Assembly (NCBI GenBank): GCA_009746045.1
Contig: RPFO01000670.1
Coordinates: 517,954 to 581,953 of the forward strand
DNA from: Mesostigma viride
Lineage: Eukaryota; Streptophyta; Mesostigmatophyceae; Mesostigmatales; Mesostigmataceae
Direction: 5' to 3'
DNA length: 64,000 bases
Part shown: piece by piece, positions 161-63,655 of the stretch
Position numbering within the stretch: the stretch's first letter is position 1
Layout: each line of letters begins with the position of its first letter
Made by a program: the position numbers and the translations under genes
Notes under the pieces: generated by a model
Databases searched by the model: none
What the model saw: only the letters and a program-made list of their open reading frames with translations
Told to the model about the DNA's origin: nothing

Positions 161-3100
161 CCGATATGAGCGTGAGCATGCGCTTGGCCACGCCGATGAC
201 CATCTGCACGACCTCGTTGCGCCTGGCCTTCTGCCGATCCAGGGGGGGGGGCTCCTGCCGCATACAAAGGGTCGCAAGTAAGGCAGCGAAAAAAGCCAGA
301 GGGTGGATGCAAGAACCAGGGAAAGGGGTGGTAATGTGAGCGCAAGGGACCCAGTAAGGCCAGGGATGGCCCCTGATGACTGGAAATGATGTACTTGTCA
401 GCCAGTGAGGAAAGCTGGACCAGGTGGTGACTTTCGCAGAGAACAAGCGGAGTTTTATATATGTTAAGAAAAAGAGGAATGCAATTCTGAAATGCTCTCT
501 TCCATAGATTAATAAGAAAATGTAATCGCAGGAATGGATAAAGCGCAGTCGGCAGCGGGAATTTTATTTAAATGAAGGCCTTGAAAGCTTTCCATCTCCT
601 AAGCGCTGCCTCTTTGCCTGGACTCTTGAATAAAAGCTTTGATGAGTGAACTCGAAGAAGAGAGGGTTGGTTGCGTGAAATTAAAGGCGATTCCTCAGAA
701 TCAAACGAGAGTCAGGCAATGCAAACAACAGAAAAATCAATAAATGAAATAAAACGTAAAGTAGTAAGTTTTTTACGCAAGAAGTATGAAATTGAAATGG
801 CAGACGAAGCTAATAATTTGAATCAAAACGGACTGTTGAAACTGAAAGTATCATAGAGACGCTTACTAGCGTGAAGACACTGCAAGAGGAATTGGACAAA
901 TTAAAGATTGAAGTGCCTGGATGAAAAGACCGTGCTATGGCAGCTGGCCAACATGGGACGCTGTGGGTCGGCCGACAGGGCTCACCGCCACGCTGTGCAC
1001 AGGATGACCACATCACTGGGCCGGTTGGCATGCATTAATCAAGGCAGGCAGAAGAGACGGCCACAATGAGCGTGGCACCGCGGATGCCACTTTCTGTGGA
1101 CAAGCGGGTCACCATCACATGGGAGCTATGCCTGACCCTACCCGTGCACCATGTATGCTTTGCACTTATCAGCGACGTTGCACACGAACTGGGAATGACA
1201 GCAAGACATTGCAACGAGGGGTTCAGAATCAAGGAAAGTAACGAGCATCGAGAAAGCGCATCAGCTGATTTGCACACCGTTCTCCTCCAGCCAGCATCGT
1301 GCCAGCCCCTCACCTGCAGGGTGTGCAGCAGGCCGAGGATGCCATGCAGTGGGGTCTTGAGCTCGTGCACCGTGTACGCAAGTTGGCTGCAGCCATGACA
1401 GGCACCACAAGGGGCACGGCAAGTACGCACACGATGCAGGCAGACAAGGGCCATGGTCAGGGGGGCGGGCAAGCCACCGGGTTGGTTCACCTGCTGCAAT
1501 GGCACATTTTGATTAGTAAAACAGGCTAAAAATCTTCCTCCTCATCCCCAAAAAATATTCCCCCACCAAGTCTGTTGCCATTAAAATCTCCAAACAACTG
1601 CATTTTCTTTTGCTGGTTATCAAAATATGAGCAAAATGCGAGCAAAATGTGGCCATGTCTTGACAGGATCCCCATCACCAGGGCATTCTGGTTGCAGGGC
1701 CACCCATGCAGCAGAGCATCGGCAAATGGACCATGAGAAAGGACACAGCATGGTGCAGAAGATGCAAAGTTTGGTACGTCATCATCAGCATCGTCATCAC
1801 AACCCCCGTCTTCTTCGTACCGGTCCCTCTCCCTCTGCGATAACTCGGTGGGCGAGCACGGCTCGTGGTCCACGCCACCGACGGTGCCATCCTCGTGTCG
1901 CCGCGTGCGGTGGCTGGAGCCCTTGCCGCAGACCGCGGGGCTGTGAGCATACCACATGAACGCCAGTACCGGGTAGACACCCTGCGCACGCACATGGGGT
2001 AGGAACAAAAAGAGAGGGGGAGGGGAAAAAGGGAGGACGAGGAGGCGGGAGAGAACAAGCCAAGGGGGCAGTGTGGATCAGCAGCCTTTACTACTGTGGC
2101 AAGGAGAGCGCGGGGCTCTTGCATCGTACGTAAGATATTCTATGCACTCCATCCCTCACATTGTCCAGAGTTCGACTGTGACAAACTTCACCTCACGTTT
2201 TACAGCTTCGTCCATGAGTGACCATAAGGGTAGTACGTCCTACTCATGTTTGCCCCCGTGGGACTAGATAGTTTAGGGTAATGCTGGTATTTATCAGCGA
2301 ATGGCCAACGCACGGGCACTACTCTCCGGTAATGAGCTTTTTTGCAGATTGGCTAAGTTTGGGATGCCTTCGGATCAGGAGACCCCTACAGTCGCCAAAG
2401 TCTGCCAGAGGTCCGGTCGTACCGGGGCACGGAGCCGCATGGTACGGACGATACTTGGCACAACTTGGCAAGATCAACATTCAAAGCACATTCAATAGCA
2501 ATTGCAGTGATCGATCATTACAGTATTATACATCCCAAGCTGGCAAGCTGCTGATCAACCCATCGCACCCTCTCAATATCCCCTCACAGCACCATGGCAT
2601 GAGCATACCCCCTTGTTGCACCATGGCATGGGGAGCAACCATGCCCCACGAGCTGCACGTGCTTGCTACGTCCTGCGAGTGCGCCACTTGCTGCCACGAA
2701 CATGTTGTAGCCATGCAGCCACTCACCACCACAAACAGGTTGTAGCCGTGCAGCCACTCACCACCACAAACAGGTTGTAGCCATGCAGCCACTCACCACC
2801 ACAAACAGGTTGTAGCCATGCAGCCACTCACCACCACGAACATGTTGTAGCCATGCAGCCACTCACCACCACACACAGGTTGTAGCCGTGCAGCCACTCG
2901 CCACCACAAACAGGTTGTAGCCATGCAGCCACTCACCACCACAAACAGGTTGTAGCCATGCAGCCACTCACCACCACAAACAGGTTGTAGCCATGCAGCC
3001 ACTCACCACCACAAACAGGTTGTAGCCGTGCAGCCACTCGCCACCACAAACAGGTTGTAGCCATGCAGCCACTCACCACCACAAACATGTTGTAGCCATG

Positions 3101-6100
3101 CAGCCACTCACCACCACAAACATGTTGTAGCCATGCAGCCACTCGTCCGTCTTCTCGTGGAGCTGCGCAAGGGTGGTCATTGACACCAGCTGTGGCGTGT
3201 GCCGGCAGAAACAGACAGGAGATGCAGGCAGGACACACAGGGGATGCAGGCAGAGGTTTGCGCGTGTGCATACGTGGGTGTCAGGCGCCAACCAAGGGAG
3301 GCATGGTAACCGCACCACATGCCTCCCATCCAGGGACCAGTGCAAGCAGAGATGTGCACAGGATGAGGCGCATGCAACCATATGCATTCACCAACAATAC
3401 GATCAGGGCAGGGACCGGGGGATGGCACAAACATGCGATGCAATGGTGGTGGCAGGCGGTTGGGCAAAAACTTTGCGCGCATGCCCATGCTTGCTTCCCA
3501 CGCATGGATGGTGTGTGTGGCCCCACAAACCACAAGGACAATAGAAACGTGGGAATGAGAGGACAGGCAACAGCAAGAAAACAAGACGCATGAGAATAAA
3601 GAAGAATGGCACCATGAAATAAGCAACCAGGGAGGCAGCCTGCCTTGCCATGCATCACAAGGGAGGCATGACGGCGCACCTTATTAATGTATTCATTTAT
3701 TATGTATTTATTTTGCATACCTTGAGCACCGGAAGATACACCCATGACAGCGCGGTGAAGGCAAACATCAGCCAGTCCTGCCGTGACGCCAAGGGCAGGT
3801 AGCGAATCAGGCAGCGCCATCCGTCCCCCGCCGCGTCCTTCTCCTTGCCCAGGCTCAGTGCCACCGCGGCCGAGGCGAGGGATGCAGCGGCGGCAGCGGC
3901 AGCCGAGCGGGGGGACGGTGCCTTGGAGGCGGACGCGAATGATCCGGCCACCTGCATGCCGCCACTGTCGGGCAAGCCGTCTCTCACCTTCCTCTGATGG
4001 GGAAACCGAGTGGGCCAAGGAGGGATGAAAGCAGGGTATGCATACACCCATTACTCGTCGGGCCAAGGAAAAAGATGGAGCTCCAGTGACACACACCAGT
4101 GTTTGAGACACTAGATTCTAAAACTAGAAACTACACGCTAAATTCTCCAGATTCGTGCCAGTAGACGCAGCCAGAGATCTCAATGGCCCCCAGTCTGGCT
4201 GCGGTCATCACCCCGTCAGGCCAGAAAGACGTCACAAATGCAGGCACGCTTACAAGCACGGCACATGTTACCACAACTCCGCCAGTGCCCGCTGCATGCC
4301 AGGGACACCTTTATCAAGGAGACAACCTTTATGTCCGCCAGCTGCCCATACTGGGGCTACAAACCAGCAACCCACCGCCATGTTACAAGCTCAAGACAGG
4401 CTCCATAAAGACGCTTCTTAGGAGGGGGAAACACGGCAGACGGCATGATGTACCTGTAGCCCTGGGTGCGGCGTGGCAGAATCCAAACATCTACACCGCA
4501 TCCCCACCTTGTTGCTACCTAGTGGGGTTTGCGAGGCTAAGCCCCTAATGTAGGACCTTCTGGGAGCCATCAAGAAGCAATAACTGTACACATAAATCAG
4601 ACACTACAACAGTTTAGAAAACCCTAACGCACACTGTGTGTCCATGCATGCATGGTTGTGTGTGTCCATGCATGCATGCATGCATGCATGTATGTGTGTG
4701 TCTGTGTGTATATGCGTGTGTGTGTCTGTGTGTCTCTCTGTGTGTGTGTCAGTGCGTGCATGCGTGCGTGCTTGCCAGCCCACTCACCGTGACGATCAGT
4801 GTGGGCGCCAGGTGCTTGAGCTTGAAGGAGCACTGCATGGTGACCACCGCCAGCAGCGCGTAGCCGTGCAGCGCACAACCAATCAGCAGCATGGGCCAGG
4901 ATAGGCCGTGTGACGCCGCGCCCGAGGTGACCAGCACGCCCCCCCCTTCGGCACACGTGTCGGGGTCCGGGGCGATGTGGGTGCCCCGCAGCTCGCGCGT
5001 GCGGAAGAGGAGGGAGAACGCGAGGAAGCCGCCGATGTTGGCACAGATGGTCCATGCCAGCTGGCGGGACGTAGTCAAGGGGGGAGCGGCCAGGGCAGTG
5101 GATACGGCGATGCCAAGTCAACAAGGCAGTCCACAAGGCACACAGCAAGGGTGGGATGGAGCATGCGTAGAAGGTGGGGTGCAACATCGCTGCCGAGGGG
5201 GTGGCCACCTGGATAGGGCGGGTGAGGCTTGGGGGCGCGTGCGGTAGACAGCACGCATGCAACAGGTGAATGACTGCTGTGACCAAGCTGCACATACAAG
5301 ATGATGCACATACATCGACATGATGCGGATACCGATCACCAAGACAATGCACGCGCAGAGAGGGGCCAGTGCTTGTGGAACACATCGCACCACCCGACGA
5401 TTCGATACACGCTCTATGTAGTCAGGGAAGGGCACCAGGTGGCAGCATATAACGCCATGATGCGGATACGGTGTGCAGTGGTGGGAGCATGCAGGCAGGC
5501 AGCGGGTGGGAGCACGTGCTGTGAGCAAGCCATCTCGTGACGTCGGCCAAAAGAAGGCACACGGCATTACATGTGAATGGACAGTATCAGGCATGGCGCA
5601 CAGGGGGCATGGGAACAGACCTTATCCTTCCTGCTCTTGGTGAACAGGTTGAAGAAGAGGATGGCCGCCAGGCTGGACAGCAGCCAGAGAGACAGGTGGT
5701 AGCCATTTTGGAACCCACCTGCGGGACAGGCAGCATATCCATGGCATAAACATGCAGCATGTCCGTGCAAGTAGCGCGCAAACATACAAAGTGTCACATG
5801 CACACCTACACACATGCACACACGCGCACACGCGCACAAGGGGCAAAGTGATGCCCCCCTCCCCTTCCTCCACCCCCCCCCCCCCCCCCCTCAAAAACCA
5901 TTTTATGATGTGCAGGCTGTTAATACATCCATGATGACAGGTATTCATGCTCACAAGCCACGCGAACGGCTCCCCATACCCTTCTCTGTGCCCAGCCCCA
6001 AGCAAGATCTGCGTAGTACTGTTAGCCACCCATCCCGCTTCCTCCTCCTCCCTCTCCCCCTCTCCCCTCTCCCCTCTCCCTCTCCCCCTCTCCCCCTCTC

Positions 6101-7904: not shown

Positions 7905-8629
7905 CTGGGGGACAGGCACCAAGGAAGAGTTGGCAGGGGGACGATGAGTGGCCCACGGGGCACAAGAGGGTGTTCGACATGCATGCATGCGTGTGCCAGT
8001 AGCCAGCGGAACCACACTGGAGGAGACAGGGGATCTGCGGGAGGTACCGGACTGCAACCAGGCTCGAGTGAACAGGGGCTGAATATTCCTTTAGGTCCTG
8101 CCAAGCAGGACAGAATGCAGCACATTGGCCCACATTCCCATGCGCTGACAGCCGTACGCTGATATAGGCCTTCTAAAAGGTGTGTGAAGATGACAGCAGA
8201 GCATGCAAGTACATTTGACGCCCAATGCCTCACCCCATGCAGCTCTTGCGCTGAATCCACACAGACCACAAGTCAATCAAAAGCTGTGGACAGGGAGGGT
8301 AAAGTTGGTGTGTTTAACTTTTGCAAAGCTTTGTACTGGTCTAAGATGAACAGACCCACCTAAACCAACGTTGGGTAAAACGTAAGGTTATGTAGACATG
8401 TGTAATGGTAGTGGTGCTGGGAGGGTGGATCACATCAGACTAGACACGAAAGTTAGTCTACAATAGCGCGGCATCTAAAAAGATTGCGTTGTCCTATTGT
8501 AGTAACTTTTACATATGCAGTCAGCCTCAGACCGGCTCGCACCAGGAAATTACTTTAAAACTGACACACGCTGTTGGACATGCGCCGGTTGGTGCCTGAC
8601 AGGGTTTTACCATGCTGGTACCTTTGCGA

Positions 8630-9115
8630 CATGGCAGTCAAACAGTTACCTTATCAAACAGTTAACTTATCAAACAGTTACCTTATCAAACAGTTACCTT
8701 ATCAAACAGTTAACTTATCAAACAGTTAACTTATCAAACAGTTACCTTATGTGTGGCAGTCAAACAGTTACCTTATCAAACAGTTAACTTATCAAACAGT
8801 TACCTTATCAAACAGTTACCTTATCAAACAGTTAACTTATCAAACAGTTAACTTATCAAACAGTTACCTTATGTGTGGCAGTCAAACAGTTACCTTATCA
8901 AACAGTTAACTTATCAAACAGTTACCTTATCAAACAGTTAACTTATCAAACAGTTAACTTATCAAACAGTTACCTTATGTGTGGCAGTCAAACAGTTACC
9001 TTATCAAACAGTTAACTTATCAAACAGTTACCTTATCAAACAGTTAACTTATCAAACAGTTAACTTATCAAACAGTTACCTTATGTGTGGCAGTCAAACA
9101 GTTACCTTATCAAGC
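8630..9115. repeat. 16-bp tandem array with higher-order blocks
   Basis: Units of TTATCAAACAGTTACC or TTATCAAACAGTTAAC. They are grouped in blocks separated by GTGTGGCAGTCAAAC. The spacers start at 8751, 8873, 8979 and 9085, giving block lengths of 122, 106 and 106 bp. The difference of 16 is one unit. It may lie upstream of, or inside the 5' region of, the histidine kinase gene. Confidence 0.92.
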
Positions 9116-9119
9116 TTTG

Positions 9120-13630: not shown

Positions 13631-13639
13631 TTAATTGGC

Positions 13640-15160: not shown

Positions 15161-15231
15161 TTGCCCATGCAGAGAGCCACTCTCTGCTGAGACACCAATG
15201 CCCTAGCCATTGCGTAATTAATTAATTAATT

Positions 15232-23800: not shown

Positions 23801-24403
23801 GGTTGGCGGCCTCGGGTAAGGTGAGATAATTAAGCACTCCCACCCCCCTCCCACCCCCACCCCTCGATTTTCCATGCAAAAGTTCGCAACAGACACACAA
23901 GACATGCCCGATGCTGGCTTCCACCCATGCGATGGGCCGGGTGACGAGCGGGTAGACGTTGCCCTGCTTGGATGCCAGCCGACCCGTGGCGCGCTCGCAG
24001 GGCTGCCGATGATGTCGCCGTCGCCGGCACCCGGCTGCTGCTGGCATTTCATGCACATGATGTGGCCAGTGATGCTGCTTGTATAAGCGGCACCATGCTT
24101 GCTTGCCAACAACCGACAAGCAGCTGCTGCCGACACCACGGGCCAGTTGTACACTACACCCCTGCTCCTGCACCCCCGCTCCTGCACCCCCGGTCTTGCA
24201 CACGCACTCCTGCACACGCACTTGTGCTATTGCACTCGTGCACATCCCAGCACATGCAACCTGACCCATGTGCGCGCCGACCCCCATGCCCACCTACCGG
24301 CCGTGCGTGACGACCACATCGCCATCCTGAATCTTGTGCACCGCAAAGTTGACCAGCGTCTCATTGGCGTGGACCAGCTGCAGCGGGGGCGAGCAAGCAA
24401 GCA

Positions 24404-24434
<31 letters not shown>

Positions 24435-24473
24435 GTGTGTGCGTGTGTGCGTGCGTGTGTGTGTGTGTGTGTG

Positions 24474-24545
<72 letters not shown>

Positions 24546-49100: not shown

Positions 49101-52100
49101 TTATGCGCACTGGTAGAGAAGATGCCAGCATGATTATGCGCACTGGTAGAGCAGATGCCAGCGTGATTATGCGCACTGGTAGAGCAGATGCCAGCGTGAT
49201 TATGCGCACTGGTAGAGCAGATGCCAGCGTGATTATGCGCACTGGTAGAGCAGATGCCAGCGTGATTATGCGCACTGGTAGAGCAGATGCCAGCGTGATT
49301 ATGCGCACTGGTAGAGCAGATGCCAGCGTGATTATGCGCACTGGTAGAGCAGATGCCAGCGTGATTATGCGCACTGGTAGAGCAGATGCCAGCGTGATTA
49401 TGCGCACTGGTAGAGCAGATGCCAGCGTGATTATGCGCACTGGTAGAGCAGATGCCAGCATGATTATGCGCACTGGTAGAGAAGATGCCAGCATGATTAT
49501 GCGCACTGGTAGAGCAGATGCCAGCGTGATTATGCGCACTGGTAGAGCAGATGCCAGCGTGATTATGCGCACTGGTAGAGCAGATGCCAGCGTGATTATG
49601 CGCACTGGTAGAGCAGATGCCAGCGTGATTATGCGCACTGGTAGAGCAGATGCCAGCGTGATTATGCGCACTGGTAGAGCAGATGCCAGCGTGATTATGC
49701 GCACTGGTAGAGCAGATGCCAGCATGATTATGCGCACTGGTAGAGCAGATGCCAGCGTGATTATGCGCACTGGTAGAGCAGATGCCAGCGTGATTATGCG
49801 CACTGGTAGAGCAGATGCCAGCATGATTATGCGCACTGGTAGAGCAGATGCCAGCGTGATTATGCGCACTGGTAGAGAGGATGCCAGCGTGATTATGCGC
49901 ACTGGTAGAGCAGATGCCAGCGTGATTATGCGCACTGGTAGAGCAGATGCCAGCGTGATTATGCGCACTGGTAGAGCAGATGCCAGCATGATTATGCGCA
50001 CTGGTAGAGCAGATGCCAGCGTGATTATGCGCACTGGTAGAGCAGATGCCAGCGTGATTATGCGCACTGGTAGAGCAGATGCCAGCGTGATTATGCGCAC
50101 TGGTAGAGAAGATGCCAGCGTGATTATGCGCACTGGTAGAGCAGATGCCAGCATGATTATGCGCACTGGTAGAGAAGATGCCAGCATGATTATGCGCACT
50201 GGTAGAGCAGATGCCAGCGTGATTATGCGCACTGGTAGAGCAGATGCCAGCATGATTATGCGCACTGGTAGAGCAGATGCCAGCGTGATTATGCGCACTG
50301 GTAGAGCAGATGCCAGCATGATTATGCGCACTGGTAGAGCAGATGCCAGCGTGATTATGCGCACTGGTAGAGCAGATGCCAGCGTGATTATGCGCACTGG
50401 TAGAGCAGATGCCAGCGTGATTATGCGCACTGGTAGAGCAGATGCCAGCGTGATTATGCGCACTGGTAGAGCAGATGCCAGCGTGATTATGCGCACTGGT
50501 AGAGCAGATGCCAGCGTGATTATGCGCACTGGTAGAGCAGATGCCAGCGTGATTATGCGCACTGGTAGAGCAGATGCCAGCGTGATTATGCGCACTGGTA
50601 GAGCAGATGCCAGCATGATTATGCGCACTGGTAGAGCAGATGCCAGCGTGATTATGCGCACTGGTAGAGAAGATGCCAGCGTGATTATGCGCACTGGTAG
50701 AGCAGATGCCAGCGTGATTATGCGCACTGGTAGAGAAGATGCCAGCGTGATTATGCGCACTGGTAGAGCAGATGCCAGCATGATTATGCGCACTGGTAGA
50801 GAAGATGCCAGCATGATTATGCGCACTGGTAGAGCAGATGCCAGCGTGATTATGCGCACTGGTAGAGAAGATGCCAGCGTGATTATGCGCACTGGTAGAG
50901 CAGATGCCAGCGTGATTATGCGCACTGGTAGAGAAGATGCCAGCATGATTATGCGCACTGGTAGAGAAGATGCCAGCATGATTATGCGCACTGGTAGAGA
51001 AGATGCCAGCATGATTATGCGCACTGGTAGAGAAGATGCCAGCGTGATTATGCGCACTGGTAGAGCAGATGCCAGCATGATTATGCGCACTGGTAGAGCA
51101 GATGCCAGCATGATTATGCGCACTGGTAGAGCAGATGCCAGCGTGATTATGCGCACTGGTAGAGAGGATGCAAGCATGATTATGCGCACTGGTAGAGAAG
51201 ATGCCAGCATGATTATGCGCACTGGTAGAGCAGATGCCAGCATGATTATGCGCACTGGTAGAGAGGATGCCAGCATGATTATGCGCACTGGTAGAGAAGA
51301 TGCCAGCATGATTATGCGCACTGGTAGAGAAGATGCCAGCATGATTATGCGCACTGGTAGAGCAGATGCCAGCGTGATTATGCGCACTGGTAGAGAAGAT
51401 GCCAGCATGATTATGCGCACTGGTAGTGCAGGAAATTCTTACCATCCATGCCAAACATCCACACTGCGACAGTATGTGCGCAGGCATCATAGGACCGAAC
51501 AGGGCATGCACCAAATGATGCGAGCGTGGGTAGTGTCCACCTTGCCTGGTAAATGGGCAGCCGCCGCCAGTGGCAGCATGCCCTACCCCGCCATCGTTGC
51601 CTCCTGCTCGACCACCCTCCTTGTACTCTGCCACGTGGATGCCTTGTGTGCACCCAAACGCAGTCCCCCCAAATGCCCCCTAAATAGGCACGACACCGGT
51701 TCCATCCATCACTACAACTTGTCCATCACAAAAAACCTACACCCGACACAGTAAACCTGTACCCTGGTCCATGACAATAGACCTGTACACAGTTCCATCA
51801 CAAAAAACCTGTACCCACCTTGTTCCATGGGAATCGGGTGGATTAGCTTGAAGGTGCACGTCACGTTGTCCCCCGGCATGACCATCTCAACACCCGTGGG
51901 GAGCGTGACGCTACCCGTGATGTCGGCGGTGCGGAAGTAAAACTGGCGGACGAGGGAGAACGGGGCAGTTGGCAGAAGAGGCAAAGCATGTCAGTGAAGC
52001 AGCAAAAACACGACATAATGAGAAAGCAGCGACAACATACCCATTGGCGCAATGACGGGCACCTGTGCCAGTACAGCATTGGATGCCCCGAATCCGTGCC

Positions 52101-55100
52101 GCCCATGTGCCACTTCACCCCATGAAGGTGAAACATAATTAGCTTGTTGTGGCATGGCAACCTGACACTTTCCATCCTGTGATCAAACAGCTCTGCGGCC
52201 TATTCAAGTGCCGGCCAGAGACCAGACGTGCCCCTCTCCATGGCGTGTGCAAACCTGTGGGCCTTGAGCTTACAAAAATGTGTAGGCCTTGAGCGTACAT
52301 AAATAAAGCTTACAGAACCAAGACACCGTAAAGCCACATGCTGCGGCCACGCGCGCACCTGCGGCCGGTAGTTTGAGAAGAAGGGAGTGTGGCGGCCGCC
52401 CTCCTCCTTGGTCAGGATGTACACCTCGGCCTCAAACTTGTCGTAGCACTTCATGGTACCCGGCTTGCACACCACCTGCCCGCGCTCCACGTCCTCGCGC
52501 TTGAGGCCGCGCACCAGCAGCCCCACGTTGTCCCCCGCCTGGCCCTCATCCATCGTCTTCTTGAACATCTCCACGCCCGTCACCGTAGTCTTCAGTGCCG
52601 CGGGCTGAACAGGGCCCAAGGGGTGTGGCGACACACACAATAGGGACAAGACAGGGGATGGGCGGTGGCAGAGCATCAGAAAAACACATCTAAGTCCTTT
52701 TGTTTGGCCTTGCCAAAAGGCGGATCTGGCATTTGTGCGCACCATCACCATGCCCTGATCAAGGGACAGCGCTCTTTTTGCCACGACCATTACACTACCT
52801 ATCCACCCTGATGCCTCCATCGATCGGCCACACCCAACTTTGTCATGACCTCAAACCCCCACCGCTACTGTGCCACCTGATCCACCTTGATGCCTTCATC
52901 CACCACCACCTCTACCACCCACCTTGATGCCTCCATCCACCACCACCTCTACCACCCACTTTGATGCCTCCATCCACCACCACCTCTACCACCCACCTTG
53001 ATGCCTCCATCCACCACCACCTCTACCACCCACCTGGATGCCTCCATCCACCACCACCTCTACCACCCACCTGGATGCCTCCATCCACCACCACCTCTAC
53101 CACCCACCTGGATGCCTCCATCCACCACCACCTCTACCACCCACCTGGATGCCTCCATCCACCACCACCTCTACCACCCACCTGGATGCCTCCATCCACC
53201 ACCACCTCTACCACCCACCTGGATGCCTCCATCAACCACCACCTCTACCACCCACCTTGATGCCTCCATCCACCACCACCTCTACCACCCACCTGGATGC
53301 CTCCATCCACCACCACCTCTACCACCCACCTTGATGCCTCCATCCACCACCACCTCTACCACCCACCTGGATGCCTCCATCCACCACCACCTCTACCACC
53401 CACCTGGATGCCTCCATCCACCACCACCTCTACCACCCACCTTGATGCCTCCATCCACCACCACCTCTACCACCCACCTTGATGCCTCCATCCACCACCA
53501 CCTCTACCACCCACCTTGATGCCTCCATCCACCACCACCTCTACCACCCACCTTGATGCCTCCATCCACCACCACCTCTACCACCCACCTGGATGCCTCC
53601 ATCCACCACCTCCTCTACCACCCACCTTGATGCCTCCATCCACCACCACCTCCACCACCCACCTTGATGCCGATGATTTCCACGTCCTGCCCCGTCTTGA
53701 TGATGCCCTGCTCGATGCGGCCGGTGACCACCGTGCCGCGGCCCTGCAGCCACCGCCGTCGTCAATGCAAAAAGCAGCACAGGCAGCAACACAGGCCTCA
53801 CAGATCAAAACAGGCCTCACAGACCCGCCGGGCCAGCATGGCCCATGGATGGCCAGGCGTGTGACGAGACTCGCTCTGGCCAACCAGCAGCACACGGCTG
53901 GAACAGGAAATGTGGGGAACTGGAGGAGACCAAAGGGACAACGTCCAGGGTGTCGAGTACCCTGTTTCAGTCAGTTCCGATGGGCACGACACGAGCGCAC
54001 AGTACAGGGAGGTCCCGGCAGGGTACGGCGGAGGCTGACTGCCATTCAATCAAGACCGCCGGTGCTGCCAAACCACGGGCTGGGCCGATGCAGGATAACT
54101 GCGTGGCTTCACCACAAGAGACCTGTGCACCGCTGGAAGGGGCAGTGCCGATGGGCGAACACCATCGCAAGACACTGACAGCCGGCACTGCGAGTGTTGA
54201 AGTCATGACCGTGCTCCAGCTCCTATATCTACCCTACGAACTGCACGCCCTTTGATTCCTCAAATTCATAATGCAAGTCAAGGAAAAAGCCAGCAAACAC
54301 ACGTGCTAGCTGGTACGCTCTTTTAGCAACCACAAAAGCAAACCATTTAAGCAAGTGAGTGAACATCGGATGGGGGAGGGGCAGTAACGTAGGGCGCGTG
54401 TGCGTGACGGCGGCGGCATCAGCGCACCGAGATGGTGAACACGTCCTCCACCGGCATGACGAACGGCTTGTCCAGCGCGCGCGCGGGGAGCGGGATGTAC
54501 TCGTCGCACTGCTTCATCAGCTCCATGATGGCGGGCTTGCCCAGCTTGCTGTCGATGCCCTGCAGGGCCTGCAGCGCGCTGCCGCGCACGATGGGGATCT
54601 TGTCGCCATCAAACTTGTAGAAGCTCAGCAGCTCTGCACGCGAAAAGTACACAGGAGGGCAGAGGATACGTGTAAGTAGCGCAGCCCTGCACTCTCACGC
54701 AGAAAGGGAGAAAGAAAAGAGGAAAGAAAAAGTAGGGCCATGCAGCGAGACGAGGCACAGCCACGCAGGGGGGACAACGGATACCCAGGACCGAGAAGAA
54801 AGGGTGGCTGAGGGAAACTCGTGCATGGCAGACTCTTGGTGCATAGGGAGAGCGGACCCATGCACAGCACAAGCAGAACCACAATGGAACGATATATTCA
54901 CAACTAGCGGAATGACAAAAATACCCTGTAGTTCTTATTGTGAGTGCGGATGGGCTTGGCGAGTGTTCCTATGTATGAACACAGCTGCCACACCGCGGCT
55001 ACTGCTGACCACAGCATGCCTGCACCGCAGCCTGCTGCCCCCCATCGCTATGGGAAAGAAAGGCTAGGCTTTTTCAGTGAGATAGTTTGGTACCATACCG

Positions 55101-58100
55101 GCTTTTTCAGTACATACAATACAGTACATGCAAAACCCATTTCCATACAGTACATACAGTAACCCATTCGATACAGTACATACAGTAACCCATTCGATAC
55201 AGTACATACATTAAACAATGCCATATATATGCATCGACAATTGCATGCGTGGCAAAGCAAAGCCCAACATGGGCTTGCAGCACCCCAAAGGCAGCAGCGA
55301 AGCACATAGGAATGCATAACAGCGCAGCCGCTGGCTAGTTTGCCCCCCGTCCACCCACACATGCGCCACGCGCTTGCTTGCCACCCCCAACTGGGCCAAA
55401 CCCATGCCCCCTGCACTCCATCCCAAACCACACAGCTCCACCCCCACCCGCACCACACCCTCAGAACCATCTCTACCCCCACCCACCCCTGCCCTAATGC
55501 CCCCCCCCACACCCCACCCACCCTCGACCCCACCCCCGAGCCCACGCACCCCTACCCTACTGTCCTCCACCCCCACGCACCCCTCAGCTCCATCTCCACG
55601 AGTTCCAGCAGCTCCTCGTCCTGGACCACGTCACACTTGTTCAGGAAGCACACCAGCGAGGGGACGCCGATCTGGGGACCCGCAGATGTGCAGGGGGTGG
55701 CAGGGTGGAGGTAAATGCCCGTGGGTGGCAGGGTAAAGGTGCCAACATCAACCCATGCTCATGCAAAGGATATGACGAGACGCATTAGTCCACCTTGGGG
55801 AACAGTTCCTGGCCAGTGGCACTCCAAACAGCGTTGCCCCGAAGGAAAGGGTCCAACATCTTCCCAAAGGATGTGTTGCGCAGATTCTAGGGAATGGATG
55901 CTCCGTGGCACGCAAGATCAGACGCACAGCTGGAGATGAAGAAGTACATGCCGCACTTCAACTCAGAGAACTTTTACAGGGATATCAGGCTGGGCGACAA
56001 GGCTGTCACTACGTATAACTTGTCACATAAGCATCATGATCTGTCAAATCCTGGAAAGAACCTGGAGCCATCTGGGTTGCCTCGCTGCCACATGCAATCC
56101 CAAGCTGGTTAGGACGCCAACGTGCTTCCATGCTCGCATCACAGTGTTCGTTCTGAGACATCGCACCCACGCCCACCCGGCAGGGTGGCTCACCTGGCGC
56201 GCCAGCAGGATGTGCTCCCTGGTTTGGGGCATGGGGCCATCAGGGGCAGACACCACCAGGATGGCACCGTCCATCTGCGCTGCGCCTGTGATCATGTTCT
56301 GATGCGCAGCTCGTGGGGGATTAGGACAGCAAGCACGGCAACAACGGGCATCAGATGGGCAGCTCGTGGGGGATTAGGACAGCAAGCACGGCGACAACGG
56401 GCATCAGATGGGCAGCTCGTGGGGGATTAGGACAGCAAGCACGGCGACAACGGGCATCAGATGCGCAGCTCGTGGGGGATTAGGACAGCAAGCACGGCGA
56501 CAACGGGCATCAGATGGGCAGCTCGTGGGGGATTAGGACAGCAAGCACGGCGACAACGGGCATCAGATGGGCAGCTCGTGGGGGATTAGGACAGCAAGCA
56601 CGGCAACAACGGGCATCAGATGGGCAGCTCGTGGGGGATTAGGACAGCAAGCACGGCGACAACGGGCATCAGATGGGCAGCTCGTGGGGGATTAGGACAG
56701 CAAGCACGGCGACAACGGGCATCAGATGCGCAGCTCGTGGGGGATTAGGACAGCAAGCACGGCGACAACGGGCATCAGATGGGCAGCTCGTGGGGGATTA
56801 GGACAGCAAGCACGGCGACAACGGGCATCAGATGGGCAGCTCGTGGGGGATTAGGACAGCAAGTACGGCGACAACGGGCATCAGATGGGCAGCTCGTGGG
56901 GGATTAGGACAGCAAGCACGGCGACAACGGGCATCAGATGGGCAAGTTTTGGTGGGTGCGCGATGGGTAACCAAAGCGGTGTACGTTCGGGTAGCGGAAA
57001 CAGCAACACTGGGCACCAGATGCTCATGTCCCGGTCATTGGTGCGCTGGTGGCCATGTTATTGGGGGAGGGAGGCCTGCTGGCCATGGGCGATCCATGGC
57101 AAGGGATGAGGATGTGCGCCATGTGATGAGGATGCCAGCAAGGTCGGCATGCTGACCAGGGCAACCGGACAACCAAGGGTGGGCGCGTCCAAGTGCATCA
57201 AAGATGGGATGAGGATGGCCAGTAATACGCTGCCGACACCTTCGGGGGGCCAGCACAAATACGTAAGTGAGAACGCAGCCGATTGGACAAAGAAGGGAAA
57301 GATAGCCCAATGACAGCTCATCCCCAAGGAATCCTCCAGCATCCTCATGCGCAGCCACTGCCACTCCCTCCAAGCACCCCCACAGCACCCCCACAGCACC
57401 CGCCGGGACTTGCCTCCACCCATCAACGTAAGTAGGCGATCACCTCCGCGGCTGCCCCTATGCAGATCATCCAAAGCACTTCCCTTGCCGTGCCGACACA
57501 AACACTCCATGCGGAGTCCTTGATCAACCTATACCAGTAACCAAATCACATGCCTTGATGTGACTAATCAGATCATCCAAAGCATGTACCTTGACATAAT
57601 CCGCATGCCCTGGGCAGTCCACGTGCGCGTAGTGGCGTTTGTCGGTCTCGTACTCCACATGGGCCTGCCGCGCCACGACGCCGACACCGTGACCACGCAG
57701 ACGCAAGGAGGGCCGCATGTGGGCGTTGCAGTTACAACACAAATGTTTTTTTTTTCAGTCAGTCGGGGTGTGAGGGCAAACGCAGGCCAGGGATTCTGCC
57801 TCGAAAGACATTGACAAGACACTAACTTTAGACTCCAGACCTTTCAAACCTTCGATTACAAGAAACCCAAAAGATAATCCCATGAATAGCAAAACAAGCA
57901 AGTACGCACTGCCATCCGTGGGTAGTGCCTATGCATGGCATCCCTCCACTCCCTCTATGGGCACATGCTACACAGGAGTGACTGCCTGGCGCTCCCGTGC
58001 CAACCGCACCTTGCATTGAAACACACAGGCCCCCCTTTGGACCCTTGGGCGTTAGCTGCTGCCACCAAACCTGCCCATCATGAGCCCGCCCCCACGTTCC

Positions 58101-60348
58101 GCTACCCCCCCGCTCAACCCCCCCTTCGATCCCCTTGCCCAAGCCCACCCCCACCATGCACAGTTCCCTGTACCATGGCGCCCCTGTATGTGCTGCACAT
58201 CCCCTGCCTCCACTCACGGTGGCGATGGTGATGCCGCGCGCGCGCTCTTCGGGCGCCTTGTCGATCTCGTCAAACGCCATGAACTTGGCCTTCCCCAAGT
58301 CCGCTAGCACCTGGGGGGGGCCACATGGCGATCGCGCAGCCCGGGGTATCGCGCCACAAGGGTGGCAAAAGGAGGGGGGGAGGAGCAGATGGTGGCAGCG
58401 ATGGGGTAGTGGAACAGCAAAGGGAAGGGGTTGTGAGGTCCAGTGAGAAGGGTGCGAGCAAGCAGACCTGAGGAAAGAGGTAGGTTGCAAGACGGCGAGC
58501 AGGCCAAGCCCATCCTATCTCTCTTTGCCAGTGGCAAATCTACTTCCAAGCTCCCACCTCCTTCCGAACCTGGGGGGAAAGGGACACCATCCGTGCAACG
58601 ATGCAATGCCTGCTGGGCCTCCTATGCCAAAGAGGTGGAGCCTGCAGAAAATTCAAAGGAAAATCAAAAGGCACGGCTGGCGTGCTGCGGTTCCTGGCAT
58701 ATACCACAGCCAAACAAACGGACCGCACCTGGCCCACCAGCTGCTGCCAACCAACACTTGTCGCCGACAGCTCCACATCCCCTTCCTCTTGCTTGTCTCT
58801 CTTGTACTCCTGCCATCATTCTCATGATGTTGCTTCCCTTTCTCCCCTGTCATCACCACCGCGCGAGTGTCTTCAGCCAGACGTCGGGGGCAGATCGACG
58901 GCCCCGTAGTTTTGTGATGACGGCGTCATTGATGACCCCCCATGCATGCTAAACAGAACTGTGCACATCCTACTGCAACCCAGAGGAACCGTGCCTGCTG
59001 CCAGACGTGCCTTTGTGATGGTGAGGGTGAGCTTGGTCTTGCCCTACCTAGATGCTGGCGGCGGTGAGCGTGGTTTTGCCCTACCTTGGTGATGGCGGCG
59101 GTAAGCGTGGTCTTGCCGTGGTCAACGTGGCCGATAGTACCAATGTTGACATGGGGTTTACTGCAGAAGGGGGGGTGGGGGGGTGGGGGGGGCAGCAGGG
59201 TTTGGGATGGGGCATCCAACAGCAGGGGGTTACGCCGGCGTGTGAGGAGCGAACACAACCAGGGCATAACATATCGGATGCAGGTGGGTATGCGCGCTCG
59301 ATGGCACGCAGACACAAGCTACACCTGACAGCCTAAACCAGGGACCAGCATTATAAGGCACCAGCTGACGCGGACGATTTCGGAGCCGATAACCATGCGC
59401 GACCCCCCCTGCAGCAGATACACACATCGCTTGTGCTGTGAGGTATCAGCTGCTCCCATGGCACAATCATGGCCAACAAGGGCTGCGCCTCCATGCTACG
59501 CCACACATCACCAGCCTAGCCGGGTTGATGAGAGGAACGGCGGAAACACTCCACACAGCTCAGTAGCCACAGCCCACGACCACATCGGCACCATGGCCGC
59601 ATTCATGCACACATTTGCAAGCACGAATGGTGGTTGACAAAACAGCATCGACCTCGCCACCCATGTCAAAGCGCGTCCACCCGAGGAAAGGGCGGCTCAT
59701 CTGCAGGAGGGATGTCTGGTTGTTAGTGCGGACGCGGGTAAACGCCGCCATCGCAACACCTGCCACAACAAACAAACGAACAAAATGCGGCACACGGCAC
59801 TCACAAGGAACGCCGCCAGCCACAAGGTGGTGAGCACCCTCAAGGCTCGTGCATCCAAGGCACTTTCCTCAATGACTCTGCACATGTGCCCTTTTCAGCA
59901 AGAAGCAGGGATACTCACTTGCGGATGTAGGTAGACATGAAGCGTTCGCTTGGCGTGAAAAAAGGGCCAGGAAGCGCAGACGAACCGACGTCCGCTGCCA
60001 CAGGACGAGGAAACAGCACCAGGTGGCGGGCAGTTGAGGAGAGATGAGTTCATTACTTACCTGTCACTGCATGTGTTTCAACCCGTGTGCATGTGCCTGA
60101 GCGTTTCTTTCTTACCTTTTCCCTCCCAATGTGCGTGTGTGCGTGTGTGTGTGCGTGCGTGCGTGCGCGTATGTGTATGTGTACGTGTGTGAGGGGTTGA
60201 GATGGAAAGTGTTGATGGTGCGGGCCGGCAGGCGGGCATGCGTGCATGCTGGTGGGGGAAAAGGATATACGTGAACGCAGGTGCGCTGCTGTTACGCCAT
60301 GGCAGGGAAAGGCTAAGGGTTACCTGCAGCAGCACATCTTCCTAACAT
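43184..60348 (-). CDS. TUFM: Elongation factor Tu, mitochondrial (nuclear-encoded)
   Basis: Twelve GT-AG exons, in transcription order: 60348-60324, 59994-59919, 59160-59085, 58310-58218, 57664-57590, 56298-56194, 55671-55581, 54633-54428, 53743-53663, 52604-52359, 51942-51819, 43251-43184. They sum to 1266 nt, in frame, 421 residues. A short Ala/Phe/Arg targeting arm (about 1-33, ending FMSTYIRN) precedes the GTPase. The P-loop is GHVDHGKT (44-51), the switch region [16 protein letters not shown], then DCPGHADY (106-113), NKCD (161-164) and SAL (199-201). Domain 2 has [13 protein letters not shown]. Domain 3 has [18 protein letters not shown] and ends [14 protein letters not shown]. It is closest in wording to plant mitochondrial EF-Tu. 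It carries aminoacyl-tRNA to the mitochondrial ribosome. The oddity is gene size: 17.2 kb for a 1.27-kb message, half of it one satellite-filled intron. All GTPase residues are intact, so I take it as functional. Confidence 0.97.
43772..51426. repeat. 33-bp minisatellite, about 232 copies, filling EF-Tu intron 11
   Basis: Head-to-tail 33-bp units containing ATGATTATGCGCACTGGTAG. Two sites vary most: ATG/GTG at the unit start, and GAA/GCA/GAG in the AGA-G(A/C)(A/G) segment. Rare units have GATGCAAGC instead of GATGCCAGC. Because 33 is a multiple of 3 and the unit lacks stops, three frames stay open for about 2,600 codons (plus-strand unit [11 protein letters not shown]; minus-strand units [11 protein letters not shown] and [11 protein letters not shown]). 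These are artefacts: the array lies wholly inside intron 11 (51818-43252). Confidence 0.98.
45940..49305. repeat. 1,683-bp higher-order tandem duplication inside the 33-bp array
   Basis: The rare GATGCAAGC variants at 46118, 46184 and 46514 recur at 47801, 47867 and 48197. Each offset is exactly 1,683 bp (51 units). The order of ATG/GTG and GAA/GCA/GAG unit types between them is also the same as far as I compared. Two adjacent 51-unit blocks, about 45.94-47.62 and 47.62-49.30 kb, are therefore a recent segmental duplication within the array. The outer edges are approximate. Confidence 0.9.
51722..51829. repeat. Degenerate copies of EF-Tu exon 11 end and donor
   Basis: On the gene strand, CATGGAACAAG|GTGGGTACAGG is followed at about 27-bp steps by GATGGAACTGTGTACAGG, CATGGACCAGGGTACAGG and a weaker fourth copy, each with TTTTTTGT- or CTATTGT-like filler. 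Confidence 0.72.
52885..53662. repeat. 37-bp minisatellite derived from EF-Tu exon 9 end and donor, about 21 copies
   Basis: Gene-strand units contain GAGGCATCAAG|GTGGGTGGTAG. The true exon 9 end is GGCATCAAG|GTGGGTGGTGG (boundary at 53663). The array begins at that boundary and fills most of intron 9. Variants are TTGATGCC and TGGATGCC on the plus strand, so only some units keep the AAG|GT donor. Confidence 0.94.
55105..55215. repeat. 26-bp tandem repeat
   Basis: About 3-4 units of CATTCGATACAGTACATACA (26-bp period with AGTAAC) in EF-Tu intron 7. Confidence 0.85.
56302..56945. repeat. 53-bp minisatellite abutting the EF-Tu exon 6 acceptor, about 12 copies
   Basis: CAGCTCGTGGGGGATTAGGA starts at 56307, 56360 and every 53 bp onward. 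The last copy touches the acceptor of exon 56298-56194. On the gene strand the acceptor reads GAGCTGCGCATCAG|AACATG, whereas units read GAGCTGCCCATCTGATGCC. The acceptor-proximal copy may therefore be a modified unit. Confidence 0.94.
57540..57610. repeat. Degenerate copy of EF-Tu exon 5 end and donor
   Basis: Gene strand: TATGTCAAG|GTACATGCTTTGG (true boundary 57590) is followed about 36 bp later by CACATCAAG|GCATGTGATTTGG. The copy has lost the GT. GCTTTGGATGATCTG recurs once more near 57470. Confidence 0.6.
59004..59120. repeat. 37-bp tandem copies of EF-Tu exon 3 end and donor, 3 units
   Basis: GCCCTACCT (donor complement) starts at 59041 and 59078, 37 bp apart. Gene-strand: true end CACGCTTACCGCCGCCATCA then CCAAG|GTAGGGC, next copy CACGCTCACCGCCGCCAGCA then TCTAG|GTAGGGC, then AAGCTCACCCTCACCATCAC with AAAG|GCACG. 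The second keeps a full donor, the third does not. Confidence 0.92.
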
Positions 60349-61949
60349 GCTGCATCCCCCATCACTCTCCTTGAAGCCTCACATAATCCCTGACACATAG
60401 AACCAGCCTCATACCTCTATATAGACTCACGGAACCAGCATGCCGCGTCCCCTGCTTCAAGGCTTTACTGTGACTGACAACGTGCGGGAAAGCTAGCAAT
60501 ATGAATGTATTGTTAACCCTGACATACATATATCGTGTTTTTTCCCCTTCTTGTTTATGTTTTTTCGATGCCCCCTACCCGGGCACAGATGTCATGGCAT
60601 ACGTACAAGACCTACGCACGCGCACATGATTTGTTTAAGCTTTACCCAACGTACCAAATCTCTCGGCAGCCACTGCCATTGAAGCAACGGTGATGCCCCC
60701 CGTGCGGGCCGTCTGCAGAACACACAGGTGCATCATACGAGGAAAGAAACTTCAATCCATCGCTGCCCAACCTACGAGAACGCTGCCCTGTGCACCGCTG
60801 CATGCAACATGTCCACATTACTGGGTGTAATCAAACTTTCCCCCAACCCCAGATAGTCGATACGCTCATGTCATGGCAAATATCGCCCAACAAATCAGCG
60901 GCTCGCTGGGCGCCAAAAAAATGGTATTCGTCAAATTCCGCCAAAAAAAAGGCGTGCTTGTACAGCTCTATACTGCCCCATAATAATACAACACAACGTT
61001 GCAGACGCGTCGTACTAGCACATAGAAATGCTGGTTGCACGTCAATAAATTTGCAGTGTGCTTTTCCCCTACTCCACAGCGGCCGTACCATTTGCACATA
61101 TGCTGAGATGCCCCGAGCCCATGTTCCCACGCACGCAGAGCTACCAGCCAACAGCCGGGCAGCTATTGGGAGGCCTGCCATCCTTGGTATTAAAATGCCG
61201 TCTCACGGTGGGGTGTCCGCAGTGCTCTCTTGTCTGATCCCACCTCCACCGGCTACGCACCAGGCACGCGAGCGCACCCGAGTGTCGGCACTCGGCAATG
61301 GCGGTCTGGTCACTTGTGTTCACGTAAAGGGTTGCCAGCCATGCAGGCTGCGGAAATGGCAGGTTGGCAGCGTTGCGGGAATCGTCGCGTCATGGAAACC
61401 CCGCGTTAAGTTCACGCATGCGCCCCTGCTCTGCCCATGCCCAGCGTGCACCTTGAAGGTACGGCGTACCTGTCAGGTATAATCCAAGGGACAAGGCGCA
61501 GGGCCGCAAATGTGATTTTTACTACTGTACAGTACAGGACACTGGGACAGTGTAAACAATGCATCCGTTATTCCTACTGTACAGTAGGTTTCCCTCCGGA
61601 TTCCGGAAATCGAAATACGAAAAATATGGGTGCACGATAGTCATGGAGGAAATGAAATTAGGTAGACGAAGCAAATGCAATACGCCGAGCAATAAAACAC
61701 AGGCGGATTGACATAGACCTTCAGGATGTTTTCCCAAATTTAACGGGCATAGAAAAAAGATCTAATGCTTCATCAGATGTCGATATAGCCGCAATGGGGG
61801 GCTCTGTCAAAGCGCGCGTAGGATAGCATGGAACATGTATCTCGAATTGGCGTTTTAGGTAGCCTCTGCTAGATGTTTGACACCTTCGTCTGAAGCGGTA
61901 TTGTGGCCTTAAGCGCTCTGGCGGCGGGAGATCCCCCGTTTTGCCGATA
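60349..61949. other. Divergent intergenic region between EF-Tu and the plus-strand gene
   Basis: 1.6 kb with no motif-bearing frame on either strand. It must hold both promoters. A 16-bp perfect palindrome CCTACTGTACAGTAGG lies at 61573-61588, and the related TACTGTACAGTACAGG lies near 61523. Confidence 0.55.
60416..60426 (-). promoter_or_regulatory. TATA-like element upstream of EF-Tu
   Basis: The minus strand reads GTCTATATAGA about 70 bp upstream of the EF-Tu ATG (60348). Position and sequence fit a TATA box. The transcription start is not known. Confidence 0.4.
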
Positions 61950-63249
61950 ATGAGTCAGACTCAGCAACCAGATGGCAACGAGAAGCTGGGTCCTCGCGCC
62001 CTGAAGCTTCGAGAATCATTTCTAAAAGCCACGGACAGTTTTCTAAATAGCTGGAAACCACAGGTACGTTCGTACTTCACTGAAGTCTACACCGGTAACG
62101 CACTACGCTAACTTGCTGACATGATGATTGCGCTCAAACACCATCATCTCCCTAGGCCTTTTCTTCCCCATACAGTAGTGAGAAGCGAGCCCGTTATGGA
62201 GGGACGACCCTTCTGCACCGTAAGCGACAATGATTGGCAGATCCCGTCTGAGGAACCACGCGGGTTGGGGTTGGGAAGGATTGCGAGAATTCCGAAGGGG
62301 GCCAGGCAAGGCATAGCACAAGGTTGCCCAGACTCCCTGGGATCTCTGTTTTGTCATCTGGGCACTTTGCTAGCTCGTAGTTCGCTGCCTATTCTTGTTG
62401 CTTGTGCGCTTGACTCGCCTCGCATCTGATTTCGTCTGCGAAGCCACTGCTGGCCCTTATGGTATTTCTGCTGTACTTCATCAGGAGGATGGACTTAACA
62501 ATGCAATTCAGCAGCAGGTGCACATGGGATACCTCTGGCCCAGCGTTGCTAGAACTGCTCTGAATGGATCCTGATTGGCGACCTGACGTTACCTAGCCAC
62601 AGTGTCCATCTAGCTAGCCGTGCCGCCCTCTGCAAGCCAATCACCAGGCAGCCCCTGGTGTGTGCATTTGGTGGAAGCCATGCACTTTCCATCAGGCGCG
62701 AGAGCCCCAGGGTGGCTGCAGCGACTGTGAGAAAACACCACCCAGGGAATGTGTGCAGCACCTTTCCCAACACCCATGTGCACCCCGCCCTCAGCCGGTC
62801 TGGTTTCATACATGTCGCCAGGCTCTGCGTTGCCTGGGGCCACCCGATAGCCTGGGCTGGCATGGCCAACCATCATGCTGGCAGCAGCTTGCAGTGCCTG
62901 TCTGTGTGTTCTGTTCTAGATGTAGTATTGGCAAACATGGCAGTTTCTTACCCATGGCATTGCCCTGAATTCCCCCATGCTGCTTGCACACACGCACCCA
63001 TAACTGCCGTCCCTGCCGGCTTCCTCTTCTCTCCCCCCGACTGCCACTGCTCCAACCTCTTCCCTTTTACCCCTTGCTACCATTCCTGCCCACACTCATT
63101 CTCACCCGTCTGTGCTCTGGGTGTGGCCCATGCCGGCATGCCCTGGTCATGCCTGCATCCCTCTCTCATGCGCGCAGGCCGTTGATGACTGCTTCGCTGG
63201 TCTGGAGGACCGCTACCTCAAGTGGATGCGCCTGCTCGTGCTGCAGGAG
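61950..63249 (+). CDS. Unrecognised gene, first two exons (partial)
   Basis: Exon 1, 61950-62063, begins at an ATG and encodes 38 residues (MSQTQQPDGNEKLGPRAL ... SFLKATDSFLNSWKPQ), then CAG|GTACGT. Exon 2, 63178-63249, follows a pyrimidine-rich acceptor (GCGCAG|GCC) and adds 24 residues in the same phase (AVDDCFAGLEDRYLKWMRLL, VLQE), then GAG|GTGGGT. Both are charged, helix-prone and stop-free, with good splice signals. The short F...L...C F..LE pattern vaguely recalls small coiled-coil kinetochore subunits of the Nnf1/PMF1 type, but that is too weak to assign. The rest lies beyond the right edge or in unfound exons. It is divergent from EF-Tu. Confidence 0.55.
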
Positions 63250-63271
63250 GTGGGTCGCAGTGCGGGGTCCA

Positions 63272-63630
63272 GCAGGCAGCAGGCAGCAGGCGGCAGGCAG
63301 CAGGCAGCAGGCAGCAGGCAGCAGGCAGCAGGCAGCAGGCAGCAGGCAGCAGGCAGCAGGCAGCAGGCAGCAGGCAGCAGGCAGCAGGCAGCAGGCAGCA
63401 GGCGGCAGGCGGCAGGCGGCAGGCGGCAGGCGGCAGGCGGCAGGCGGCAGGCGGCAGGCGGCAGGCGGCAGGCGGCAGGCGGCAGGCAACAGGCAGCAGG
63501 CAGCAGGCAGCAGGCAGCTGGCAGCTGGCAGCTGGCAGCAGGCAGCAGGCAGCAGGCAGCACACTGCAGGCAGCGGGCAGCGGGCAGTGGGCAGCGGGCA
63601 GCGGGCAGCGGGCAGCGGGCAGCAGTACCA
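63272..63630. repeat. (GGCAGCA)n heptamer array with GGCGGCA block
   Basis: Heptamers GGCAGCA, then a contiguous run of GGCGGCA (about 63392-63485), then GGCAGCA/GGCAGCT/GGGCAGC variants, in the intron after exon 63178-63249. The array is bracketed by GCAGGAG|GTGGGTCG at 63244-63257 (the real exon end) and again at about 63641-63655. Confidence 0.95.
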
Positions 63631-63655
63631 TGCCCTGACGGCAGGAGGTGGGTCG

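Follow-up and report, generated by a model that had tools for sequence, protein, structure and literature searches.

Copies of exon ends and 5' splice sites in the introns behind them in Mesostigma viride: probable hotspots of small direct duplications

How introns lengthen and turn over their sequence is an old question. It is raised anew by a stretch of 64,000 nucleotides of Mesostigma viride nuclear DNA (the window), in which the last bases of exons recur, together with the donor, in the intron that follows. Are 5' splice sites places where duplications preferentially arise, or merely places where they are tolerated?

A copy was defined by ungapped comparison of the 24 bp around a splice site (-16 to +8) at lags of 12-400, at a level of at least 18/24 or, more leniently, at least 16/24. 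The intron sample comprises 161 introns in 32 genes: 32 introns come from the window and 129 from kinesin genes of the same genome, the latter kept from 152 predicted, which makes 184 introns examined. Several tests rest on the first 111 introns. In the gene-model aligner the intron penalty was raised against spurious micro-exons ahead of any copy test. One pair of near-identical duplicate contigs (L038 and L021) agreed at 99.96% over 5,034 bp, with 0 mismatches and 2 gap openings.

For two genes of the window the exon ends were fixed independently of the arrays. The EF-Tu gene (43184..60736, minus strand), judged by its relatives to be of the mitochondrial type, showed 100% identity over 365 aa, and the 440-aa EF-Tu P0001 of the public Mesostigma protein set parses letter for letter into its 12 GT-AG exons. 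At each of exons 3, 5, 9 and 11, the four exons after which the earlier note had described copies, this protein agrees with the first donor. Arrays were found at exon 3 (37 bp x2.5 by TRF, spanning the donor, 59026..59117; exon end 59085) and at exon 9 (37 bp x21.4 by TRF, 52882..53671; exon end 53663), while the copies at exon 5 (57480..57610; exon end 57590) and exon 11 (51747..51842; exon end 51819) are decayed and weak, both scoring 14/24; the latter form a 26-bp array (TRF, x2.7 at 51747-51817). By eye, the exon 9 unit contains 9 exon and 28 intron bases, and despite its 21-copy array this exon reaches just 17/24 by the 24-bp rule. Exon 7, which is G-rich, is counted among the lenient window cases with 17/24.

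The ends of the 16 exons of the eIF2B-delta gene (17808..32426, minus strand) were taken from the parse of our own 666-aa model; the protein has homologues. Arrays span the donors of exon 2 (28 bp x3.0, 30817..30901; exon end 30878), exon 5 (31 bp x4.5, 26525..26665; exon end 26647) and exon 12 (41 bp x3.3, 21176..21310; exon end 21297), all by TRF and all as previously claimed. Of the two other exons named earlier, exon 4 (28025..28254; exon end 28231) is followed by spaced copies at lags of 81 and 189, the second matching at 23/24, and exon 1 (31569..32426) by a weak 20-bp copy of its end (16/24). Exon 3 (16/24) and exon 13, whose copy at a lag of 39 has decayed to 19/24 (20290..20358; exon end 20338), are further cases absent from the earlier note.

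The exons of the partial histidine kinase gene (7 exons, 161..5718, minus strand) were placed by eye; the gene contains a HisKA match under the curated cut-off. The last 33 bases of one exon (3112..3189, donor at 3111) are copied into the intron in an array that had been described as 35 bp x13 and was recovered by TRF as 35 bp x12.9 (2694..3144). Its unit comprises 33 exon and 2 intron bases, and the array contains 10 GTGAGTGG and 2 GCGAGTGG. On the plus strand a putative exon (63178..63249), placed by eye and without Pfam match, is followed at 63270..63657 by a 7-bp array (63270-63625) and then by an exact copy of exon end and donor, which from 63641 reads GCAGGAGGTGGGTCG. A Pfam scan of 7700-20400 and 31500-43500 yielded just a microsatellite artefact and the last exon of EF-Tu.

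Within the window, 7/33 donors have a copy at a level of at least 18/24, and the "third of donors" estimated earlier is reached at the lenient level of at least 16/24 (11/33); the corresponding numbers for acceptors are 0/32 and 2/32. In the full sample a copy within 400 bp downstream (at least 18/24) was found for 33/161 donors, with event L018:305 counted twice, where 0.08 were expected from other introns, and for 7/161 acceptors (Fisher, 1.3e-5). Cases at a level of at least 17/24 occur in 19/32 genes, with heterogeneity between genes (P=0.024). At 400-1000 bp downstream, 2/111 donors still showed a copy of at least 18/24 compared with 0.04 expected. A second kinesin set of 5 genes with lower-scoring gene models gave 0/24 donors at a level of at least 18/24 and 3/24 at a level of at least 16/24. 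Introns with a donor copy are longer than those without (median 862 bp vs 576 bp, P=3e-4), which fits the proposed intron lengthening and does not by itself prove its direction.

Such numbers could also be obtained if duplications arose at a uniform rate and were purged from exons and acceptors, donors then being permissive edges instead of hotspots. Minisatellites are abundant in the window (54 TRF rows), few copies occur at acceptors or inside exons, and repeats cover 24% of the intron interior, which is not below the donor rate of 20.5%. Since the interior coverage matches the donor rate, the donor excess is visible only if each array is counted once; the coverage null counts every array copy and was therefore not used as the sole measure. 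Counted once per array, the intron first-copy rate is 4.3% and the matched expectation 6.95, compared with 33/161 donors observed. Uniform duplication with tolerance also fails to explain why strength-matched intronic GT pseudo-donors show no effect: copies were found at 5/87 of them vs 26/121 true donors (P=0.0015), and at 0/32 exonic pseudo-donors. Copies at donors are thus commoner than at random intron positions (once per array), acceptors and matched intronic GTs, which supports the earlier note's reading that DNA spanning donors is duplicated recurrently. The other-intron and pseudo-donor controls rule out the donor motif alone as the cause. G-rich intron starts were considered as well; the first 20 bases contain 39% G, and introns with and without a copy do not clearly differ.

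The starts of the duplicated segments cluster on the exon side. Event starts amount to 6.6/kb at [-40,-20) and 5.0/kb at [-20,-5) compared with 0.86/kb at [40,400), corresponding to ratios to the interior of 7.6 (P=6e-11) and 5.7 (P=6e-6). Pooled over 5-40 bp upstream of the donor, the once-per-array start density is 6.8x that of the intron interior (gene-bootstrap 95% 4.5-10.1), and just inside the intron, at [-5,40), the excess is merely 2.2-2.3x (P=0.03-0.08). Detection bias from the conserved exon was rejected as the source of this clustering, as the simulated visibility advantage of 0.95-1.44x is too small for 6.8x. In 161 introns 32 events straddle the donor. The exon part measures 9-74 nt (median 24) and does not exceed 40 nt in 32/37 events; five events added later, whose exon parts measure 27-74 nt, made the exon-side breakpoint less narrow and lowered the probability given to the positioned breakpoint proposed below. 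Uniform breakpoints would predict a longer exon part at long lag, but among the 26 events with a lag >60 a uniform exon-side breakpoint was rejected (KS P=5e-4). Taken with the start density and the pseudo-donors, this makes duplication at a uniform rate with mere tolerance at donors an unlikely account, if one to be taken seriously. The short exon part may in part result from selection against longer exon copies that would make strong rival donors. Units begin with G in 56% of the 32 events, compared with 30% of 107 events in the intron interior.

Copies of the exon end lie in direct orientation and are confined to the boundary region. In the 111 introns, at a level of at least 17/24, the exon end had no copy in the intron before it and the exon start had none in the intron after it. 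This bears on another possible origin, templated insertion during end-joining repair, in which a polymerase theta-like activity would copy exon ends as filler into intron breaks. Filler DNA should come from any template close by and in either orientation. In favour of filler, the first 111 introns contain 27 donor events, of which 15 are spaced and 12 tandem on ungapped alignment; many cases are therefore no minisatellites. For several copies with an exon part of about 90% identity, similarity of the intronic flank was not found in a comparison that uses intron-part scores alone. Simple tandem duplication should leave such similarity, and its lack counts against it. Furthermore, the best segment does not cross the donor in 6/38 exon-starting events, and in two of the sampled introns (L023:210 and L037:161) the copied exon segment ends 30-48 bases before the donor. 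Against filler insertion, inverted copies of the exon end are absent at a level of at least 17/24 (0/111), and more than 60 bases upstream of the donor only 0-1.4% of windows are copied. At looser levels inverted copies number 3 vs 1.2 expected (at least 16/24) and 12 vs 6.3 (at least 15/24), the slight excess at the loosest level counting against purely direct duplication. With gaps allowed, several spaced cases reach into the intron, and the exon parts of the 27 events (13-70) become longer than on ungapped alignment; as the query was cut 26 bp before the copy, the spacer values are upper bounds. Young cases visibly have a tandem structure. Head-to-tail arrays of many copies make up a minority of cases, those of the kinase, EF-Tu exon 9, L042:204 and L028:167. 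We consider filler insertion very unlikely, and a DNA-level tandem duplication appears to be the event.

Perfect copies (24/24) are not enriched, with 3/111 donors vs 2.4 expected, while copies of at least 23/24 are (9 donors vs 2.45 expected in 111 introns). The missing excess at 24/24, which is also what tolerance alone would lead one to expect, means that the donor excess may reflect longer retention instead of more frequent birth. Retention by selection, for instance if the copies bound U1 or tuned splicing by serving as decoys or back-ups for the donor, would agree with the excess of decayed over perfect copies and with the higher frequency of GTGGGT donors among cases (7/27 vs 5/84 others). 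However, among 19 copies selected by their exon bases only, positions +1..+6 are no better kept than -6..-1 (identity 0.82 for both) and the GT is intact in 14/19, so nothing shows upkeep of the copies as donors; nor do the lags prefer multiples of three (9/32). We regard selective maintenance as highly improbable. That the copies are left over from introns born when exon segments containing AGGT were duplicated in tandem (Rogers model) is a practically negligible explanation: such birth is a known process according to PMC4974935, but the end of the intron then repeats the exon end, and neither this nor the intron start at the start of the next exon was seen in any of 161 introns at a level of at least 14/20. 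Exon ends match the end of their own intron no better (6.38) than the ends of other introns (6.49; 161 introns).

In summary, we consider it probable that direct duplications recur at the real 5' splice sites of Mesostigma viride, where they are tolerated and their copies then decay or expand. Genuine 5' splice sites would be hotspots for small direct (tandem) duplications with one breakpoint in the exon, in most cases 10-40 nt before the donor, and the other 20-300 bp into the intron, and such breakpoints would lead to an exon end and donor repeated downstream. The duplication would be tolerated because the exon would still be terminated by the original first donor, which is presumably the one used, while the additional copies sit in the intron. 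Some duplications would then expand to minisatellites and the rest decay, an old copy being recognisable chiefly if its original, the exon with its donor, is conserved. Duplications spanning the acceptor also occur, more rarely; their scarcity is perhaps due to use of the extra upstream AG.

What might place the exon-side breakpoint at a distance of, mostly, about 10-40 nt from the donor is a more speculative matter. It could be set by a protein-RNA complex that sits on the active splice site, either a paused or backtracked RNA polymerase II or an early spliceosome, a proposal that we rate as rather doubtful. Replication colliding with the complex, or repair primed by nascent exon RNA, would re-copy the DNA from the breakpoint, and splicing itself would mark the sites of intron duplication and growth.

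The arrangement had been thought to be without described equivalent, but the human CBS gene provides a known precedent in one gene. Its 31-bp VNTR, c.1444_1467+7(16_21), is designated as 16-21 copies of exon bases 1444-1467 (24 bases) plus intron positions +1 to +7 (PMC2630376) and is located at "exon 13-intron 13" in a table entry (PMC1395315). By this name each CBS unit should carry the donor, as the donor-straddling units of Mesostigma do, and the 24-nt exon part equals the median in Mesostigma; if a complex on the splice site does set the breakpoint, the CBS unit would be another product of that process. Whereas CBS is one polymorphic locus in one species, Mesostigma has cases at 33/161 donors (at least 18/24) and in 19/32 genes (at least 17/24), many of them old, low-copy duplications. 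Tandem duplications at or across intron boundaries that create extra splice signals are also listed in PMC4974935 for potato RdRp, fission yeast 24-bp repeats and ATP2A1. There the duplication makes a new intron with its ends, whereas in Mesostigma the introns pre-exist and the duplication is donor-side; that of potato RdRp straddles the acceptor, the rarer side in Mesostigma. Arrays such as those with 13 units of 35 bp and 21 units of 37 bp resemble ordinary intronic minisatellites, but unit starts in Mesostigma cluster 5-40 bp upstream of real donors and are not random. The main text of either Mesostigma genome paper contains no word beginning with "splic" (PMC6947507, PMC7027972).

In about one fifth of the sampled exons the last ten to forty bases and the splice signal are copied into the intron behind, and the 5' splice site thus appears to be a preferred place of duplication in many genes. 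The donor ladders offer splicing studies a natural series of candidate competing donors, and the pattern in Mesostigma suggests looking for CBS-like repeats at the donors of human genes. If splicing or paused transcription indeed positions the duplications, RNA processing would directly shape genome structure.

We assigned the window to C1779:517954-581953 of the source assembly, which comprises 2,243 contigs and 439,911,974 bases. A spliced EF-Tu gene on the minus strand showed 100% identity over 365 aa with the protein jgi/Mesvir1/24947 of Mesostigma viride, which we take the label Mesvir1 to denote, and 12 GT-AG exons from 60736 to 43184 reproduce all 440 residues of the Mesostigma EF-Tu protein exactly. 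Together with the eIF2B-delta gene (32426-17808; 16 exons; best homologue 49% identical, 99% of the query covered) and a partial histidine kinase gene, whose 7 exons were placed by eye and whose HisKA match of 21 bits lies under the curated 26.9, it forms the window set of 33 donors (5' splice sites) and 32 introns. The counts exclude the plus-strand gene, which was identified by eye alone. Kinesin motor exons were searched across the whole genome (134 rows) and exon-intron models were built with a purpose-written spliced profile aligner. A first set of 17 kinesin genes retained 79 of 95 predicted introns under exon-score rules fixed ahead of any copy test; a second of 5 genes retained 24 of 28 and a third of 7 genes 26 of 29, bringing the full sample to 32 genes and 161 introns. 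The kinesin gene L038, on the short contig C622, duplicates L021 on C2 (99.96% over 5,034 bp) and is either a haplotig or a very recent copy.

Other repeats were noticed in the window. The last EF-Tu intron (8,567 bp) holds a 33-bp tandem array at 43769-51431 (7.66 kb; 232 copies; 96% matches), both strands of which carry long open frames, and a 53-bp x12 array at 56301-56944 stops two bases ahead of EF-Tu exon 6, excluding exon sequence. A 4-bp CAAC/CGAC repeat (26792-27561, 770 bp, in blocks of differing variants) stops about 30 bp ahead of the eIF2B-delta exon 5 acceptor (3' splice site). On the minus strand at 35870-36800 a 269-aa open frame, followed by a short ACTT-repeat tail, resembles by eye the terminal part of a reverse transcriptase protein of LINE type; it gave no Pfam matches.

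Copies were counted by comparing 24 bases (-16 to +8) around each donor, ungapped, with its own intron at lags of 12-400, and acceptors by the mirror image of this rule. At 18/24 identical bases 33 of 161 donors carried a copy, compared with 6.95 expected from resampling matched interior positions and with 7 of 161 acceptors, bearing out the earlier note's observation of recurrent copies at donors. Its estimate of about a third holds for the window at the lenient 16/24 (11/33 donors; acceptors 2/32) and fails at 18/24 (7/33; acceptors 0/32), a level attained by 0.1% of 2,624 exon-interior positions of the window. Donors and acceptors numbered 20/79 and 4/79 in the first kinesin set, 0/24 and 1/24 in the second, and 6/26 and 2/26 in the third. 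Genes were heterogeneous overall (P=0.024); the 0/24 reflects either true heterogeneity or poorer gene models in that set. Leaving out the paralogue L015 changed little (donors 19.6%, start-density ratio 6.8).

Donors compared with other introns (25,304 pairs) gave 0.08 expected at 18/24, against the 33 observed. Intron-interior positions lie inside some repeat in 24% of cases, first copies making up just 4.3%. Counted once, the 148 events comprised 32 straddling donors, 9 straddling acceptors and 107 others. Five of the 9 acceptor-straddling events cluster in two kinesin genes, L029 (introns at m 133, 201 and 237) and L042 (introns at m 204 and 303). Event starts per kb were 6.6 in [-40,-20), 5.0 in [-20,-5), 2.0 in [-5,20), 1.9 in [20,40) and 0.86 in [40,400), with a pooled density ratio of 6.8 (gene bootstrap 4.5-10.1; one of 33 events counted twice). 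In a visibility simulation exon-anchored and interior duplications were detected at a ratio of 0.95-1.44. Intronic GTs matching the strength of the top three quarters of true donors carried copies in 5/87 cases versus 26/121 true donors, and those matching the top half in 1/26 versus 22/81. Among 111 introns, no inverted copies of the exon end, exon-end copies in the previous intron or exon-start copies in the next intron reached 17/24; at a loose 15/24, inverted copies numbered 12 versus 6.3 expected.

The share of 20-bp windows copied downstream was highest, 20.5%, for the final 20 bases of the exon, falling to 2.5% at -40 and 0-1.4% between -60 and -80; over the initial 80 bases of the intron it was about 10%. 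Where the best segment crosses the donor (32 events), the exon part measured 9-50 nt (median 21) and lags 21 to 306. Six further rows begin in the exon without crossing the donor on a single ungapped diagonal: one is event L018:305 again, with a gap, and the segments end one base before the donor (L019:66), precisely at the exon end (L023:135), or 30 and 48 bases before the donor (L023:210 and L037:161), or continue at a different lag (L041:286). With these rows (n=37) the exon part was 9-74 nt, median 24, and at most 40 in 32/37. A uniform exon-side breakpoint was rejected (P=5e-4; 26 events with lag >60, scanned to 80 bases; P=1.7e-6 without the added rows). Simulated detection rises just from 0.53 at an 8-nt exon part to 0.87 at 60 nt, so detection does not account for how rare long exon parts are. 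A tandem structure is seen in young cases (L014:206, L029:290 and the arrays). Older copies chiefly retain the exon end and about 6 intron bases, a bias that conservation of the original at these bases, with drift of both intron copies, would produce; flank similarity is absent in some old copies. Copied donor bases showed no special conservation.

The earlier note's view that nothing equivalent had been described is wrong at the single-locus level: the name of the human CBS VNTR, c.1444_1467+7(16_21), gives 16-21 copies of 24 exon and 7 intron bases (PMC2630376), and PMC1395315 enters it as exon 13-intron 13. Intron gain by tandem duplication, as outlined in PMC4974935, is a neighbouring process and not the same, since its signature was found in 0/161 introns. 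No genome-wide report of such donor duplications was found in the literature searches, though absence in print was only weakly tested.

In summary, the results support the view that duplications are concentrated at genuine 5' splice sites, whether by birth or by long retention. The two are not separated, because perfect 24/24 copies showed no excess (3/111 donors versus 2.4 expected) and copies at >=23/24 did (9 versus 2.45, 111 introns). The scarcity of acceptor duplications would fit a use in splicing of the first AG that follows the branch point. The data further support the reading that duplications at donors are tolerated because the first donor still terminates the exon.
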